The notes below the pieces were generated by a model that did no database searches, was not told the origin of the DNA, and was given only the letters and a program-made list of their open reading frames with translations. From Patescibacteria group bacterium (GTDB lineage: Bacteria > Patescibacteriota > Gracilibacteria > UBA1369), in NCBI GenBank assembly GCA_963169815.1, contig CAUJDC010000044.1, forward strand, positions 1 to 38,587: a stretch of DNA of 38,587 bases, in the 5' to 3' direction. Numbering within the stretch: position 1 is the first letter of the stretch; every line of letters begins with the position of its first letter. This document shows, piece after piece, positions 12,819 to 18,842 of the stretch. A program made the translations under genes and the position numbers.

Positions 12819-12846
12819 TTGACTTGAGCGACAATCTCAATATAAT
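12819..12846 (+). promoter_or_regulatory. Promoter of tRNA-Glu
   Basis: TTGACT (12819-12824) and a perfect TATAAT (12841-12846) are 16 bases apart, placing the start of transcription about 33 bases before the mature tRNA 5' end. Confidence 0.75.
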
Positions 12847-12885: not shown

Positions 12886-12960
12886 GGAGATATCGTCTAG
12901 TGGTTAGGACGACAGGTTTTCATCCTGTAAACCGGAGTTCGATTCTCCGTATCTCTACCA
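12886..12960 (+). tRNA. tRNA-Glu (anticodon UUC)
   Basis: The 75-base cloverleaf has acceptor strands GGAGATA and TATCTCT (7 bp with one G-U), a D arm with TGGTTAGGA and an anticodon stem ACAGG/CCTGT. The loop TTTTCAT gives anticodon TTC. The T arm reads CGGAG-TTCGATT-CTCCG. Discriminator A and a genomically encoded CCA end the gene at 12960. It has its own promoter and lies between two operons. Confidence 0.97.
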
Positions 12961-13038: not shown

Positions 13039-13067
13039 TTTACTTAAGTGAACAAATTGCCTATCTT
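13039..13067 (+). promoter_or_regulatory. Promoter of ferredoxin-led operon
   Basis: TTTACT (13039-13044) and TATCTT (13062-13067) are 17 bases apart. The predicted transcription start near 13074 lies downstream of an in-frame ATG at 13068, which argues that the real start codon of the ferredoxin is 13101. Confidence 0.55.
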
Positions 13068-13100
13068 ATGGGCACTAAAATTATCTTTTTATTCAAAGAA

Positions 13101-13433
13101 ATGCTCATCACTATTTCCAGAGAACTCTGTATCGGTGCCGCTCCTTGCGTAGCTATAGCAGGAGATGTTTTCCAACTCGATGAGGAAGGCAAATGTATTC
13201 AAATTGGTCTGGTTACTGACGAAGCAAATACCAGACTGGCCGCGGAAGCCTGTCCAGTCAGGGCAATCTTTATTTATGATGATGCCAAAATTCAATTATA
13301 CCCACCAGAAGACGAAATGCCTTATCCATATGTTCCTGAACCAATTCTTAGCATGAAACCTGCCAATAATGTGACTCAAGCACCGACTCAGCCAACTCCA
13401 CCAGAAGCCCAAGAACCACCAAAGGCCGCCTAA
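13101..13433 (+). CDS. Monocluster ferredoxin with Cys-to-Ala substitution and proline-rich tail
   Basis: This 110-aa protein begins with the ferredoxin core ITISRELCIGAAPCVAIAG and closes with AAEACPVRAI. Cluster cysteines are C10, C16 and C51; the second ligand position of a standard CxxCxxC loop is Ala13. That pattern is typical of single [3Fe-4S] ferredoxins, or of [4Fe-4S] proteins with one open iron site. C32 is an additional cysteine. Residues about 68-110 form a Pro/Ala/Glu-rich tail not needed for the fold. The ATG at 13101 fits the usual ferredoxin start and the promoter position; an upstream ATG at 13068 would add 11 hydrophobic residues. It likely passes electrons to an unknown partner and heads a five-gene operon. 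Confidence 0.85.
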   Translation: MLITISRELCIGAAPCVAIAGDVFQLDEEGKCIQIGLVTDEANTRLAAEACPVRAIFIYDDAKIQLYPPEDEMPYPYVPEPILSMKPANNVTQAPTQPTPPEAQEPPKAA

Positions 13434-13445
13434 AACCAAGCCAAT

Positions 13446-14435
13446 ATGGCTGACCAAAATCACAATTCACCAGCCTTCACGATTGACCTTGATCAAGCCG
13501 CTCAAGCCTGGGAATCTATTAAATCAGCGAAGCAAATCGCTATCATTTCTCATCGCCACCCCGATCCAGATACCGTTGGAGCCAATTTAGCCTTGCGCAG
13601 CGCGCTCACAAAAGCTGGCCTACAAATTCAGTCTTTTTGTGTTGATGCACCACCAGAAACATGTCAATTTCTCGAAGAATCAGCTTGTTATCAAAAAAAT
13701 TTTCAGCCAGAAAACTTTGACCTGATTATCAGCGTAGATTGTGGAGGTATAGAACAAGTCGCCTTTCAAAAACAGTTCCCTGATATTTTCAAAAGTAACT
13801 TTATCAATATCGATCATCACGCCTCCAATCAGTTATTCGGAACCATCAACATTGTTCAAACCAACCTTTCTTCCACCTGTGAAATAATTTATCAATTATT
13901 ACATTTTTGGGAACTTCCAGTTACTACAGATATCTCCAATTACTTATTATTTGGTTTATATTACGATACTGGCAGCTTCATGCACCCCAATACAACTCCA
14001 ACGGTTTTAGAAATTGCCAGCGATTTAGTCAGACTGGGCGCCCGATTGGATTTAATCACCAAAAGCCTTTTTCAAAATTTCACAGAAAATAAATTTCATC
14101 TCTGGGGTCAGATACTAGAAAAAATCAAAGTCACTGCCGAAGGTAATGCTGCAGCAGCCATTCCTCATCAAGATTTAGTAAAACATCAAGCCGGCTCAGA
14201 GGAGTTGAGCGGTCTCACTAATTATCTAAGCATGGTTAAAGGCAGCAAATTTGCCGTAATGGTCAGCGAAGAAGAGACTGGGCAAATTAGAGGGTCACTA
14301 AGATCAGTGAGCGGCGATGTAGATTTATCCAAATTGGCTCAAAGCCTAGGCGGCGGTGGCCATCGCAAGGCCTCAGGTTTCAGTTTGGAAGGAAAAATTA
14401 CCGAACATCCTTTTTGGACAATTCAACAAAATTAA
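13446..14435 (+). CDS. DHH/DHHA1 phosphoesterase, NrnA-like oligoribonuclease
   Basis: Family members degrade 2-5 nt RNAs or cyclic-dinucleotide products, and some dephosphorylate pAp. All motifs are present: HRHPDPDTVG (residues 36-45), VDCGG (97-101), the DHH triad in IDHHAS (122-127), YYDTGSF (172-178) and the DHHA1 substrate loop GGGGHRKASGF near residue 308. The length of 329 aa is standard, so the enzyme should be active with two metal ions. It follows the ferredoxin by 12 bases. Its stop overlaps the next start (TAATG), coupling it to the RNR-like gene. NrnA is the best guess; a cyclic-di-AMP-directed DHH enzyme (GdpP-type) is less likely as no sensory domain is present. Confidence 0.9.
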   Translation: MADQNHNSPAFTIDLDQAAQAWESIKSAKQIAIISHRHPDPDTVGANLALRSALTKAGLQIQSFCVDAPPETCQFLEESACYQKNFQPENFDLIISVDCGGIEQVAFQKQFPDIFKSNFINIDHHASNQLFGTINIVQTNLSSTCEIIYQLLHFWELPVTTDISNYLLFGLYYDTGSFMHPNTTPTVLEIASDLVRLGARLDLITKSLFQNFTENKFHLWGQILEKIKVTAEGNAAAAIPHQDLVKHQAGSEELSGLTNYLSMVKGSKFAVMVSEEETGQIRGSLRSVSGDVDLSKLAQSLGGGGHRKASGFSLEGKITEHPFWTIQQN

Positions 14436-16318
14436 TGGAATTAAAATTACAAACCAGCCAGGGACAGATCATTAAACTCAGATTTCAACAGTTGGAAGAA
14501 TTAATGTTACAAGCCTGCCTAGAAAAAAATATCACTGCACAAATCAGCCATGAAATTCTTAGCAAGATCAGTAAATACCTGGAAATTTTTTTATTAAATC
14601 CAGGAAATATTCTATCAACAGATCAATTTATCAGTCTAATTGCGAATATCTGTAATGAAAATGAACAAGCCGAACTTGGCCAAGCTTTAAGCAAGCTCCT
14701 ATTACAAAACAATTCTCAAGAAATAAAAACTGAATTCAGCTTCAATAAAATTCAACAGGAAAAACTCAAAAAACTCTATTTGCCACCAGCAGAAACTGGT
14801 CTGAGTTTCGCCGATCTGGTCAACAAAATCGCTAATAAAAACAATGATTTTACCAACGCTGTCAAACTAATCAAGCTATTCGATCAATCAATCTTTTTTC
14901 CCGACCATAACAATCATAAAATAGTCTTAAAAGACGACTTAGACGCCATTTTTGAAGGACTCAAAACTACAGCCAGAAATTTTCAAAACCATATCAGCAC
15001 CTGCATTGATTTCTCCAAACTTAGACCAAAATTATCGTTAATCCACTCGATTAAAAATTTTTCCAGTGGTCCAATTTCTTTCATCAAAATCTACGCGGCT
15101 ACTATCGAAACTCTGCGTCAATCAATCAGCAGTGAATTCACTCCACATCAGACTTTCATACTAAATATCCATCATCCGGACATCTTAGAATATCTGATTT
15201 TCATTAAAAATTTCCAGAAAAATTCGCTCAATGCGCATTGCCATTTCAAAATAGAAATTACTTCCAATTTCCTGGAAGCTCTTAGCAAAGAGGAAAATTT
15301 TGAGTTAATCAGTCCAGAAAATAATCAAATCATCAACCTACTAAGTGCTAAACACACTTTCGATTTAATTATTTCCACGATTCAGGAAAACTCTCAATTG
15401 GAGATCACCAGCGCAGTAAATGGCGAAGCAAATAATGAGTTAACCATCAACGGTTTATTTAATCTTGCACCTTACGGTATGGTTAAAAATCCTCTAAGAA
15501 AAATTAGTGAAGATTTAAAAACTGTCGAAGAATATTTACTCAAACAAAAAAATTCAGCCAGTCAAAATACCAAGAAGGTTTTGCAGATACGTCTAAATTT
15601 CACTGGTTGGCATGATTTTCTAATCGGACAAGAGATTCCTTACGCCTCCATTCAGGCCCTTGAAATGGCTCAAAAAATGGTCAATCACATCAACAGTGCT
15701 TTGGCTCCAGATACAGGAAAAGGTGTGAGTTTAGCTTCACCGTTGCAAGCAATTCTCGAGCAAAGTCATGGCCTGGAAACGTATCAATCGCTTAGTTACT
15801 CTCGCACTAGTTTAGAGGGTGCTGAAAATATTCAATTAATACAACCTTTGCAGGACAGTTTAAATAATTCCAATTTGAATTTGGCCGAGCTTACCAAAAT
15901 AATTGTCGAACAAAATTCATTGAAAGAGATTTATCAGATCCCCTCCGCAGTCAAAAACATTTTCACCCTTGGTCAGGAAATCCCTGCAGATTTTCACTTC
16001 AGTTTACAAAAAATCTTCGAAACAGGTTTCGGTAACAATATCGAAAAAATGATTTTCTTGGAAAGGCATTTTGACCTGGAAGAAGCAAAAAAAATCTTCC
16101 AGGAACAATTACTGAACAATTTATTAAACCTAGGTTATTCCCAATTCCAGCCAATCTCCCGTGAAAGTTTAAGTGAACATCAATATTTGGACAAAAATTA
16201 TTTACACTCTCTCAACAATCAAAATCGTCGTCGACATCGTGAGATACAACCTCCACTTTTCCAATTGAAAAAAACTGAAGAAATAAAATTACCTCCCATC
16301 AACTCATCACAAAAATAA
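14435..16318 (+). CDS. Catalytically degenerate class II ribonucleotide reductase-like protein
   Basis: Segments of this 627-aa protein align in order with B12-dependent ribonucleotide reductase (NrdJ): FSKLRPK (193-199), SGPISFIKIY (211-220), HHPDILEYL (246-254), FTGWHDFLIGQEIPYAS (389-405), SHGLETYQSLSYSRTSLEG (444-462) and SLKEIYQIPSAVKNIF (495-510) with HFSLQKIF and NNIEKMI (521-540). Residues 1-95 resemble an ATP-cone. The reductase chemistry cannot work. The only cysteines are 28, 73, 190 and 269; the first catalytic Cys aligns with about His161, the thiyl Cys of NPCGE with about Glu331, and its partner with Phe342. The PTG-S phosphate loop is also lost. It is thus a pseudoenzyme, perhaps a nucleotide binder. 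The ATG at 14435 is chosen over an in-frame TTG at 14414. Confidence 0.8.
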   Translation: MELKLQTSQGQIIKLRFQQLEELMLQACLEKNITAQISHEILSKISKYLEIFLLNPGNILSTDQFISLIANICNENEQAELGQALSKLLLQNNSQEIKTEFSFNKIQQEKLKKLYLPPAETGLSFADLVNKIANKNNDFTNAVKLIKLFDQSIFFPDHNNHKIVLKDDLDAIFEGLKTTARNFQNHISTCIDFSKLRPKLSLIHSIKNFSSGPISFIKIYAATIETLRQSISSEFTPHQTFILNIHHPDILEYLIFIKNFQKNSLNAHCHFKIEITSNFLEALSKEENFELISPENNQIINLLSAKHTFDLIISTIQENSQLEITSAVNGEANNELTINGLFNLAPYGMVKNPLRKISEDLKTVEEYLLKQKNSASQNTKKVLQIRLNFTGWHDFLIGQEIPYASIQALEMAQKMVNHINSALAPDTGKGVSLASPLQAILEQSHGLETYQSLSYSRTSLEGAENIQLIQPLQDSLNNSNLNLAELTKIIVEQNSLKEIYQIPSAVKNIFTLGQEIPADFHFSLQKIFETGFGNNIEKMIFLERHFDLEEAKKIFQEQLLNNLLNLGYSQFQPISRESLSEHQYLDKNYLHSLNNQNRRRHREIQPPLFQLKKTEEIKLPPINSSQK

Positions 16319-16852
16319 ATGCAACTTTTCAAAGATATTGTTTTACTGCTGACTTTTATATTGGTCTTACTGATGTTCGCCACAGTTTTCGTTTCATTTT
16401 TCATGGCCAAAGTTCCTTTTGTTCCAACTCGTAAAAAGATTCTACCTTTACTTGAACCACACTTGAAAGATCGCCAAGGGCAGCTAATGCTTGACATAGG
16501 TTGTGGAGACGGAAAAGTGCTTTTTTGGGCCGAAAAAAAACTGGGACTGAAAGGACGTGGATTTGAAATTTCTCCACTTCCCTACCTCTTAAGCATCGTT
16601 AGCAGATACCTAAAAAGTTCTTCAGTCGAACTACGCTTTGCTAATTTTTTCAAACAAAATCTCCAGGATGCCAACTTGATTTTTTGCTATCTCTTTCCTG
16701 AACTTGTAGAAAAAGCTTATGACCAAGCCAAAAAACAATGTAAACCGGGCACATTATTTATTTGTAATACCTTTAGACCAAAACAGCTAGAACCTGTTAA
16801 AATAATCAGTGACGAGAAAAACAAACCTTATTTCTATATTTACCAGCTCTAA
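16319..16852 (+). CDS. Membrane-anchored SAM-dependent methyltransferase, FAM173-like (copy 1)
   Basis: This 177-aa protein has one N-terminal membrane helix (about 7-30), then PFVPTRKKIL, then a class I methyltransferase core. The core shows motif I LDIGCGDGKVLFWA (about 59-72), the acidic strand-2 end FEIS, and a strand-4 segment ANLIFCYLFPEL (about 119-130). The PFVPT element preceding motif I and the late CYLFPE segment are features of FAM173-type enzymes, whose animal members methylate lysines of ATP synthase c subunit or ADP/ATP carrier. The substrate here is unknown. It starts at the base after the previous stop and is followed after 3 bases by a clear paralogue. Confidence 0.8.
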   Translation: MQLFKDIVLLLTFILVLLMFATVFVSFFMAKVPFVPTRKKILPLLEPHLKDRQGQLMLDIGCGDGKVLFWAEKKLGLKGRGFEISPLPYLLSIVSRYLKSSSVELRFANFFKQNLQDANLIFCYLFPELVEKAYDQAKKQCKPGTLFICNTFRPKQLEPVKIISDEKNKPYFYIYQL

Positions 16853-16855
16853 AAA

Positions 16856-17449
16856 ATGCTCGATCTTATCACCAGCCTTCTAGTTATTCTTGGTTTAATA
16901 CCATTACTCTATTTCACCAGCCATCAATTTAATGATCTATTCGCCTTAGTAGTTTTAATTTTGCTCAGTGTGCCAACTGTGATGGCCTTGGTAAATGGTG
17001 CACCTTTCGTACCAACACCAATGAATCAAGTGAAGAAAATGGTCGCTCTTGCCAAATTAAAAAAAGGCCAACGTGTTTATGACCTCGGTTGTGGCGATGG
17101 TCGTTTTGTTTATATTGCTGCCAACGTGTATGGAGCCAAAGCTACTGGTATCGAGCTATCACCAATGGTTTATCTCTATGCCAAAGTCCGCCAACTTTTC
17201 TGGAGATCCAAAGCACAAATTGTTTTTGGAGATTTCAAAATGCGCAACATCTCTGACGCCGATGTAATTTTCTGCTATCTGCTTCCAGAATGTTTGACCA
17301 GAATTCAACCAGATCTCGATAAGCAATTAAAACCAGGAACGCTCATTTATTCATACGCATTCAAAATTCCCAGCTGGAAATTAATTCATACTGAAGAAAG
17401 AGACAAAACTGCTAACCTCGGACCAGTTTTCGTCTACGAAAAAGTATAA
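16856..17449 (+). CDS. Membrane-anchored SAM-dependent methyltransferase, FAM173-like (copy 2)
   Basis: This 197-aa protein is a tandem paralogue of the preceding gene. It has two hydrophobic segments (about 3-21 and 27-47), the linker APFVPTPMNQVKKMV, then motif I YDLGCGDGRFVYIAA (about 75-89), IELSP, and ADVIFCYLLPECL (about 138-150). The C-terminal segment LIYSYAFKIPSWKLI matches the SxxFxxPxW end of FAM173 enzymes better than copy 1. Retention of the G-x-G-x-G SAM loop in both copies suggests both are active. Its last 38 bases overlap the end of comEC on the opposite strand. Confidence 0.83.
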   Translation: MLDLITSLLVILGLIPLLYFTSHQFNDLFALVVLILLSVPTVMALVNGAPFVPTPMNQVKKMVALAKLKKGQRVYDLGCGDGRFVYIAANVYGAKATGIELSPMVYLYAKVRQLFWRSKAQIVFGDFKMRNISDADVIFCYLLPECLTRIQPDLDKQLKPGTLIYSYAFKIPSWKLIHTEERDKTANLGPVFVYEKV

Positions 17450-18842
17450 ATACTCCCAGATACCATAGTAGCGCCAGCCAAAGATTATCTTGGCCTATTT
17501 CAATTTGTGCCATCGGCAAAATGGCCAGACCATGGGCAATCCAAAGCATCAATTGAAAAACAAATTCCAAAAAACCTCCAGGCAAAAATCCCAATCCAAA
17601 AATTCCAGCCGGAACTACAATTGAGCTGATTAGCATTGCTATAGGAACTAGCGGAGCAACCAGCAGATTTGCTATAGGTGAAATTAAAGATACCCTCCCA
17701 AAACTATAAAACATCAACGGCAATGTCAGCACCTGAGCGGCAATAGTTAAAATAATCCCCTCCTTGATGGCCTCCGGCCAATTCCAATCGAGCTTTTCCA
17801 GTAGAACATCTCCAAACCAGATGAGACTGAGAGTCGCGAACAGTGAGAGTTGAAAAGATAAATCAAAATCCCAATACAGAGGCTTAAACCAGACAATCAA
17901 AAAAGTACTCATAGTAATTGCTTTGAAAACCGTGGTTTTCCGACGAAAAATTTTCACCGCAAAAACAAGTACACCCATCACCGCCGCACGCACCACGCTG
18001 GCACTGGCACCAGTCAAAACAACAAAAAAACTAATCAAAATAATTGCCCAAGATAATCGCCAAAAACGCCCCACTTTAGCCAGAAAAAAGATCAACAAAT
18101 TGATAATCAAAGTTATATTAAAGCCAGAAATAGCCAGAATATGAGTCAGTCCAACAGTCTGAAAATCAGTCAAAATTTCCTTTGCTATGCTTGCCCTTTG
18201 CCCAATTAAAATGCCACCAGACAGAGATGCAGCTGGCTCTCTTAAATTTTCCTGCAAAATCCGCAGCAGCCAACTCCGACCAATAAAAATCAGCGATTCA
18301 ACCGAATTACTCTGACTCACTCTACTCAACAAAGAAGCCCTTCCACTTGTCCAGCTCAAACCATCTTTAAGCAGTCGCCATTTCTTTAAAGAATTTTTTT
18401 CTGATGAGTTTCCCAGCAAATCAGTACTGATTTTCCAGGTATCTCCATAAAACACTTCCCGCTCATCCATCACTCTCAACTGCAATAATTCACCATTTGA
18501 AATTATTCTCCCAATAAAACTTTGCTCAACACCCTGCTTTTCCACTAAAGAAATTACTTTAATCTCATAGGTCTGAGTAGTAATCTGATCTGGCTGCATT
18601 ACTACCTCAAACTGCATCACCCAAAACATTCTCATCAAACCAAGCAAACAGCTCATTAATAAAACTACCCAGGCTTTCCTCCAGCGCTCCCTCCAAATTA
18701 CCCATACAGTTAGCAAAAAGCCGAGCAGCGATCCATAAAACAGCAACACTTGAGCCTTGAGCAACATGCCAGTCGCTACACCAACCATCCACAGAAATCC
18801 CAAAATAAAAATATTTATCTGCGTATCACGATTCCAGGGCAT
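17412..18842 (-). CDS. comEC: ComEC/Rec2-family DNA uptake channel (no metallo-beta-lactamase domain)
   Basis: It probably forms the inner-membrane channel for single-stranded DNA import. N-terminal membrane helices flank an extracytoplasmic OB-like region of about 150 residues. The Competence domain follows with the signature GLTHILAISGFNITLIIN (split: GLTHILAISG, FNITLI) at about residue 230, then SASVVRAAVMGV and multiple helices to the C-terminus. The usual C-terminal metallo-beta-lactamase-like nuclease domain of full-length (700-800 aa) ComEC is absent; the protein ends after the membrane part at 476 aa. Shortened ComEC proteins are known in several phyla. It overlaps the convergent methyltransferase gene by 38 bases. 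No other competence genes are in the window. Confidence 0.9.
   Translation of the reverse strand: MPWNRDTQINIFILGFLWMVGVATGMLLKAQVLLFYGSLLGFLLTVWVIWRERWRKAWVVLLMSCLLGLMRMFWVMQFEVVMQPDQITTQTYEIKVISLVEKQGVEQSFIGRIISNGELLQLRVMDEREVFYGDTWKISTDLLGNSSEKNSLKKWRLLKDGLSWTSGRASLLSRVSQSNSVESLIFIGRSWLLRILQENLREPAASLSGGILIGQRASIAKEILTDFQTVGLTHILAISGFNITLIINLLIFFLAKVGRFWRLSWAIILISFFVVLTGASASVVRAAVMGVLVFAVKIFRRKTTVFKAITMSTFLIVWFKPLYWDFDLSFQLSLFATLSLIWFGDVLLEKLDWNWPEAIKEGIILTIAAQVLTLPLMFYSFGRVSLISPIANLLVAPLVPIAMLISSIVVPAGIFGLGFLPGGFLEFVFQLMLWIAHGLAILPMAQIEIGQDNLWLALLWYLGVFILFRRRKLVRG

Follow-up and report, generated by a model that had tools for sequence, protein, structure and literature searches.

A ribonucleotide reductase-derived protein without catalytic residues in a ferredoxin-DHH-methyltransferase cassette of a Gracilibacteria genome

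Background

Ribonucleotide reductases (RNRs) are normally essential and tightly conserved enzymes, and the R1 proteins of betaherpesviruses are related to the class I R1. These viral proteins, such as human cytomegalovirus (HCMV) UL45, murine cytomegalovirus (MCMV) M45 and human herpesvirus 6B (HHV-6B) U28, are RNR large-subunit homologues that are enzymatically inactive and kept for protein interactions (PMC11772975, PMC5469499). Dead RNR large chains put to another use were found in the literature for herpesviruses only, and no report of a bacterial dead RNR was found in the open literature, where absence is weak evidence. Here we describe an RNR-derived gene in a member of the Gracilibacteria (GenBank assembly GCA_963169815.1), from a family of very small, uncultured Peregrinibacteria. 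The window, i.e. the whole stretch of DNA analysed, comprises 38,587 nucleotides of contig CAUJDC010000044.1 (contig C44 of a 1.09 Mb genome, G000). The gene encodes a protein of 627 amino acids (aa) and is the third in a run of five, after a ferredoxin and a DHH/DHHA1 phosphoesterase and before two S-adenosylmethionine (SAM) methyltransferases, MT1 and MT2 (Table 1).

The best solved sequence relative of the family profile is the class II (B12-dependent) RNR NrdJ of Thermotoga maritima (PDB 1XJE; 3.3e-136). In the T. maritima enzyme Asn320 and Glu324 hold the substrate ribose and Arg207 of loop 2 the substrate phosphate, Asp141 contacts the effector ribose and Arg171 and Lys158 the effector phosphates, and the effector site is located at the ends of the four-helix bundle of the dimer interface (eLife 07141). 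The DHH enzyme is compared here with NrnA, which cleaves RNAs of 2-4 nt; relatives of the DHH enzyme degrade 2-4 nt RNA or cyclic di-AMP (PMC9757072).

Descent of the RNR-derived protein and loss of catalysis

We searched 59 relatives with the RNR-like protein, extended the search to 89 genomes of the order by means of family profiles, and annotated about 60 loci with home-built hidden Markov models. The match of the window protein to Pfam PF02867 (Ribonuc_red_lgC) is best over the front of the barrel, and locus orthology indicates descent from a class II RNR that is resident at the same locus in related families. Like NrdJ 1XJE, the protein has the barrel fold and the effector residues Asp141 and Arg171; unlike NrdJ, it has no C134, C322, E324, C333 or loop-2 R207 and no C-terminal CxxC tail, i.e. 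the thiyl-radical cysteine, the redox cysteine pair (C134/C333), substrate loop 2 and the tail are all missing. Because of these losses, it is predicted to be incapable of RNR chemistry as known. The finger-loop pattern of an active RNR (N320/C322/E324, N-x-C-x-E) is likewise absent: C322 and E324 fall in alignment gaps in the window protein and its counterparts from genomes G007, G002 and G005, the shorter forms do not have these residues, and the NICNE string of the window protein sits in the N-terminal domain, away from the catalytic site.

All seven dead sequences aligned from the window's family are without C134, C322, E324, C333 and loop-2 R207 (T. maritima numbering). Dead products in this family measure 627, 592, 336, 212 and 189 aa: the window, G002, G007 and G005 encode long forms without C322, E324, C333 and C134, whereas shortened ones are encoded by G009 (336 aa), G012 and G008 (212 aa) and G006 (189 aa). 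Two members, G004 and G010, keep NPCGE, C134 and C333 but not the CxxC tail, which is gone from every family member with a complete RNR gene. Catalysis was lost on more than one occasion.

Regions retained in the dead proteins

Asp141 and Arg171, which correspond to D167 and R197 of the window protein, are invariant in all seven dead sequences of the family, and the position of Lys158 is occupied by K, R or Q. By alignment, the residues that anchor the effector in the RNR superfamily are present; nucleotide binding itself is predicted at most. In the long dead forms the dimer-interface and effector segment has the largest number of invariant columns of all regions, and the short remnants consist of little beyond this segment and the tail. 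An AlphaFold2 model of the window protein was built from four sequences, and the closest PDB matches of this low-confidence model are RNR large chains (VIA Z about 20 over about 330 residues). Both sequence and fold homology to the barrel place the protein in the RNR large-chain superfamily.

The second retained region is a short C-terminal motif, (E/Q)(I/V)xxPP(I/V), carried by every dead copy aligned in the family. In the form [EQ][IVF]xxPP[IVLAP] it is carried by 38 of 44 locus orthologues, where shuffles predict 0.15, and the non-orthologous RNRs all lack it; it occurs in locus RNRs whether catalytic or dead, the 189-212 aa remnants included. The motif persists in the window, G002 and G007, which have lost the gene for a helical protein that usually follows the RNR (the partner, see below), and it is missing in family f9 though the partner is present there, so that the partner cannot be its sole target. 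The idea that the tail is received by a tetratricopeptide repeat (TPR) in the partner was rejected, a regular expression having found the TPR pattern in one partner only. Sliding-clamp tethering through the strings QPPLF, QLSLF, QSQLPF, QVNLPF or QNSLPF ahead of the tail, which are similar to clamp-binding motifs, was also rejected: the spacing fails in f7, the strings are absent from f13 and f14, and the G003 fragment contains a comparable string by chance at another place. Clamp tethering is kept as a lead.

Selection on the dead RNR

In a comparison of G012 with its sister species G008, the 212-aa remnant shows a ratio of nonsynonymous to synonymous substitution rates (dN/dS) of 0.021, the lowest in the operon (MT1 0.050, DHH 0.060, partner 0.077). 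For the RNR-derived gene dN/dS refers to this remnant; the window type was judged by its long, open and divergent reading frames (ORFs), and synonymous sites are saturated among the window, G007 and G002. The RNR ORFs of these three genomes, which represent three genera, run without interruption through 568-611 aligned codons and share 42-45% identity. In the same genomes the identity of DHH is 44-48% and that of MT1 39-41%, and the long dead RNRs are about equally constrained. Loss of catalytic residues is thus combined with retained purifying selection, as in a selected pseudoenzyme. The low dN/dS of the remnant and the long ORFs kept open at 42-45% identity contradict decay, and on this evidence the RNR-derived gene is no decaying pseudogene.

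The family cassette and the ancestral RNR locus

Wherever the locus could be read in the family (11 genomes), the ferredoxin and DHH genes lie directly upstream of the RNR or its remnant; the G003 contig stops 0.2 kb into the third gene, where the RNR match is weak. An earlier note on this DNA had proposed gene-neighbourhood analysis as a check on whether the five genes are only incidentally adjacent, and conservation of the cassette throughout the window's family shows that the adjacency is not incidental. Conservation of the DHH-RNR pair in distant lineages, which the note had named as support, was not borne out: the DHH genes found a few genes downstream of RNR and partner in f9 and f12 group with canonical nrnA in the tree and not with the window copy. 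On the strength of this tree the DHH was rejected as an ancient partner of the RNR. The family's ferredoxin did not turn up in seven loci examined from other families.

The window genome has a second RNR, of class I, with an 802-aa NrdA and NrdB (PF00268, 8.8e-114) on contig C51 (L043:1154-4676(+)). The type of RNR varies within the family, since NrdB is present also in G001, G003 and G007 and not in G002, G005, G010 and G012. A class II RNR of 1200 aa is encoded elsewhere in G004-G006 and G008-G012, and another class II type in G002.

Families f4, f7, f13 and f14 carry one full RNR at the locus, with NPCGE, both redox cysteines and a Cys-rich CPEC...CxxC C-terminal tail, followed by the helical partner (about 660-900 aa here), often a methyltransferase, and a convergent ComEC; with few exceptions this is the only RNR found in their genomes. 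The locus RNR is also retained in f8 and f9. In f9 the partner is followed by a cob(I)alamin adenosyltransferase, as expected because the RNR is a B12-dependent class II enzyme, and by a thioredoxin-reductase-like protein, DJ-1/PfpI and DHH. In f15 a non-orthologous RNR of 1160-1531 aa is found at the locus with the partner still next to it, and two f2 genomes have partner and methyltransferase but no RNR. Across the order, what is conserved as a unit is an RNR followed by the helical partner and a methyltransferase, beside a convergent ComEC, and the cassette appears to be a family-specific remodelling of this ancestral class II RNR locus, the partner having since been lost in the window. ComEC adjoins most of the loci across the order, which links nucleotide metabolism and DNA-uptake genes in synteny.

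The partner is an order-restricted, all-helical protein of 500-900 aa (e.g. L040:5350-7629(-) and L064:7111-9393(+)) that follows the RNR gene, dead or catalytic, in most families examined; it gave no Pfam or PHROG match and no significant PDB match with Foldseek. The window genome, G002 and G007 have no partner, and in G005 it is shortened to 354 aa. A C-terminal -AA is found in 24 of 44 partner proteins, and the ferredoxin has one in the window (13425-13433), G007 and G003; among about 480 proteins that are unclassified or belong to other families, 2 have it. Of the three genomes with a ferredoxin of this kind, the window and G007 have no partner and in G003 the locus is incomplete (see also L032 and L146). 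The C-terminal di-alanine looks to be under selection. As regards a possible ClpX degron, a search of six genomes gave no ClpX above cut-off, and the ends of tmRNA tags vary (AFA, FAA, VAA, ATA or VMA).

Three further RNR genes of the order deserve mention. G023 (family f12) has an independent dead RNR of 471 aa (L155:2246-3661(+)), with the partner gene directly downstream and a different RNR elsewhere in the genome. Its ATP-cone is strongly kept (5.5e-24), the radical cysteine, effector residues and tail are lost, and it arose separately from the dead RNRs of the window's family. The RNR of G084 is encoded by two ORFs of 529 and 284 aa that jointly span the family profile (L190:2413-4874(+)), reflecting a frameshift, an assembly error or a real split. 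The f13 RNRs of L041 and L042 measure 1129-1152 aa, about 350 aa beyond their orthologues, and have no plain N-x-C-x-E string, yet the catalytic residues are recovered in the alignment; the genes are likely to have an insertion close to the active site, possibly an intein.

Neighbouring genes and locus layout

The five genes and the intervals between them (12 bp, a 1-base overlap in TAATG, 0 and 3 bp) are as the earlier note gave them, and domain searches agreed with its gene families: Fer4_15, DHH and DHHA1, the RNR barrel and two SAM methyltransferases with hydrophobic N-termini. The single promoter that it placed ahead of them was not recovered, as a promoter scan found none between tRNA-Glu and the ferredoxin. 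The sole strong sigma-70-like site of the stretch (12819-12846, 11/12 matches) fronts tRNA-Glu, and the total number of such sites is no higher than shuffles yield.

The ferredoxin is probably translated from the ATG at 13101 rather than from 13068, because its family homologues begin there. Three cysteines are conserved in all 11 family genomes (CIGAA[PA]C ... ACP) and fit the pattern C-x2-(non-C)-x2-C ... C-P, which predicts a [3Fe-4S]-type cluster; the tail of the protein is proline-rich and ends in KAA. In the DHH protein all motifs of NrnA-type DHH-DHHA1 enzymes are intact (HPDPD, VDCG, DHH, DTGSF and GGGGH). It shares domain order and all active-site motifs with Bacillus subtilis NrnA but, unlike the latter, is a second copy beside a canonical nrnA (contig C29 of the same genome), reaches 97.4 bits against an NCBIfam equivalog cut-off of 350 bits, and is linked to an RNR, in the window's family only. 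In the tree the C29 nrnA clusters with DHH proteins from f3, f9 and f12. The window-type copy is restricted to the family, within which members are down to about 40-50% identical to the window protein.

MT1 and MT2 are compared with the archaeal protein-lysine methyltransferase NF041081, the nearest curated family of this kind, and with the lysine methyltransferases of ATP synthase c, with which they share a SAM motif and N-terminal hydrophobic segments. By hydropathy, MT1 has a single predicted membrane segment at its N terminus and MT2 has two. Unlike the comparison proteins, they are two tandem copies, and their scores of 37 and 70 bits lie below the curated NF041081 cut-off of 200 bits. 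ATP synthase subunit c, which the earlier note offered as a membrane target that they could modify, is a hypothetical substrate: the subunit (AtpE) encoded on contig C25 of the same genome has a lysine in the polar loop, but the methyltransferases fall far short of this cut-off. MT2 is the most conserved gene of the cassette (62-68% identity to G002 and G007), and its 3' end is overlapped by the convergent ComEC. Relatives of the methyltransferases are widespread outside this neighbourhood. A role in anti-phage defence was considered and discarded, PADLOC having given only weak methyltransferase-fold matches.

Table 1 Features of the RNR-derived locus in the window
Feature	Position	Strand	Basis
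tRNA-Glu(TTC), conserved upstream marker of the locus	12886..12960	+	ARAGORN
Ferredoxin, small	13101..13433 (ORF can begin at 13068)	+	Fer4_15 5.5e-9, alignment, position in 11/11 family genomes
DHH/DHHA1 phosphoesterase, NrnA-like	13446..14435	+	DHH 5.5e-16, DHHA1 1.8e-10
RNR-derived pseudoenzyme, 627 aa	14435..16318	+	Ribonuc_red_lgC (PF02867) 9.8e-24, alignments, fold
Segment of the RNR barrel kept at the dimer interface and specificity-effector site (residues 166-254)	14930..15196	+	Alignment; residue roles from eLife 07141
QPPLF, ahead of the EIKLPPI tail	16247-16261	+	Sequence
C-terminal short linear motif EIKLPPI of the RNR-derived protein	16280..16300	+	38/44 orthologues
Junction where the helical partner gene (660-900 aa) sits in related genomes, absent in the window genome	16319	.	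Locus comparison
SAM methyltransferase MT1, LDIGCGDG, predicted membrane-anchored	16319..16852	+	Domain searches, hydropathy
SAM methyltransferase MT2, YDLGCGDG, predicted membrane-anchored	16856..17449	+	Domain searches, hydropathy
ComEC, DNA uptake channel	17412..18842	-	PF03772 2.2e-51, synteny

Possible function and alternative explanations

The position kept behind the ferredoxin and DHH genes, together with the loss of catalysis, suggests a worn-out enzyme turned nucleotide sensor or scaffold. The RNR-like scaffold of the earlier note stands in so far as the catalytic residues are gone and the fold, effector residues and selection are kept; the scaffold role itself is one we infer. We consider the chances about even that the RNR-derived pseudoenzyme is a scaffold that dimerises and senses nucleotides, next to a DHH enzyme of NrnA type that is still active. 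A ferredoxin and a second NrnA-like DHH gene lie ahead of the resident RNR; RNRs elsewhere (class I NrdAB in the window genome) would have taken over deoxynucleotide synthesis, and the resident RNR shed its catalytic residues with its gene retained. The dead RNR may still dimerise and bind ATP or a deoxynucleoside triphosphate (dNTP) at the former specificity site. It could relay the nucleotide state to partners through dimerisation and the tail. The nearest plausible client would be the DHH enzyme, because its motifs are intact and its gene overlaps the RNR-like gene; it might degrade short oligonucleotides or a signalling nucleotide. The membrane methyltransferases are a possible output and the ferredoxin a possible redox partner. 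As in the R1 pseudoenzymes of betaherpesviruses, an RNR large-chain homologue would have lost its activity, here as read from sequence, and kept its gene. Unlike those viral proteins, which act on host signalling, the window protein is bacterial, derived from class II, located in a DHH/ferredoxin operon and shortened in several lineages.

Several observations weigh against a nucleotide-sensing scaffold. Lys158 is replaced by Gln in the long dead forms, as it is in the catalytic G010, G004 and G025, and since loop 2 is gone as well, effector affinity could have been lost and Asp141 and Arg171 kept for structure. The dead RNR of G023 retained the ATP-cone instead of the specificity site, so that the part kept differs among lineages; this case is compatible with retention of an allosteric nucleotide site and contradicts retention of always the same site. 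The AlphaFold2 model is weak (mean pLDDT 55.8), nucleotide binding, dimerisation and contacts with DHH, ferredoxin and methyltransferases are all predictions from sequence, and the promoter and co-transcription of the cassette are putative.

It is possible, if doubtful, that the protein is a structural docking platform without nucleotide sensing, whose E(I/V)xxPP(I/V) tail docks the helical protein, or another one where that has been lost. Such a role would agree with the presence of the tail in all family members, the shortest remnants included, and in catalytic orthologues, and with a partner that adjoins the RNR, dead or alive, throughout the order and even follows the non-orthologous RNR of f15. 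The invariance of Asp141 and Arg171 in 7/7 dead family sequences argues against it, as does a tail that outlives the partner in the window, G002 and G007 and is absent in f9 beside the partner. An incidental operon, in which a functional RNR-derived protein shares only transcription with ferredoxin, DHH and methyltransferases, appears improbable. Methyltransferase relatives are common without this neighbourhood, the DHH copy is family-restricted and a substrate shared by the cassette proteins is hypothetical, but the genes overlap and have stayed contiguous in 11/11 genomes although DHH identity drops to about 40-50%.

A second, still catalytic RNR-like or other nucleotide-reducing enzyme with altered chemistry, in which electrons from the ferredoxin replace the C-terminal Cys tail, would explain why the ferredoxin is family-specific and all family members lack the CxxC tail, and G004 and G010 do retain NPCGE, C134 and C333 without it. 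We nevertheless regard this as very improbable, since the window and six other sequences have neither the radical Cys nor Asn-x-Cys-x-Glu at the site nor the redox pair, and the 189-212 aa remnants are without most of the barrel; it can apply to G004 and G010 only. Hardly credible is a decaying relic, a redundant gene that drifts to loss and is open by chance. Truncation has been repeated, a second RNR provides redundancy and the neighbouring partner gene has been lost, but against this stand the dN/dS of 0.021 of the remnant, more than 560 codons kept open in three genera at 42-45% identity with divergence like that of DHH and MT1, and the retained tail motif and effector residues.

Significance

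The RNR-derived gene would be a bacterial example of a repurposed dead enzyme, and that it is a sensor is an interesting hypothesis. Annotation would take such genes for functional RNRs or discard them as fragments. The conserved but unannotated helical protein adjacent to the RNR across a candidate-phyla order is worth a study of its own. A single bacterial family displays successive stages, from catalytic forms without the redox tail through full-length dead forms to remnants of 336, 212 and 189 aa, with the effector site and a tail motif retained, and such a series would open the allosteric site of RNR to study in the absence of catalysis. It is a rather unlikely but wider prospect that the allosteric part of RNR, which binds effectors and dimerises, was freed from catalysis more than once to form a bacterial nucleotide-sensing module. 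Such a module would inform a DHH phosphodiesterase and membrane methyltransferases of the level of dNTPs or ATP, in bacteria that depend on a host and probably feed on scavenged nucleic acids.

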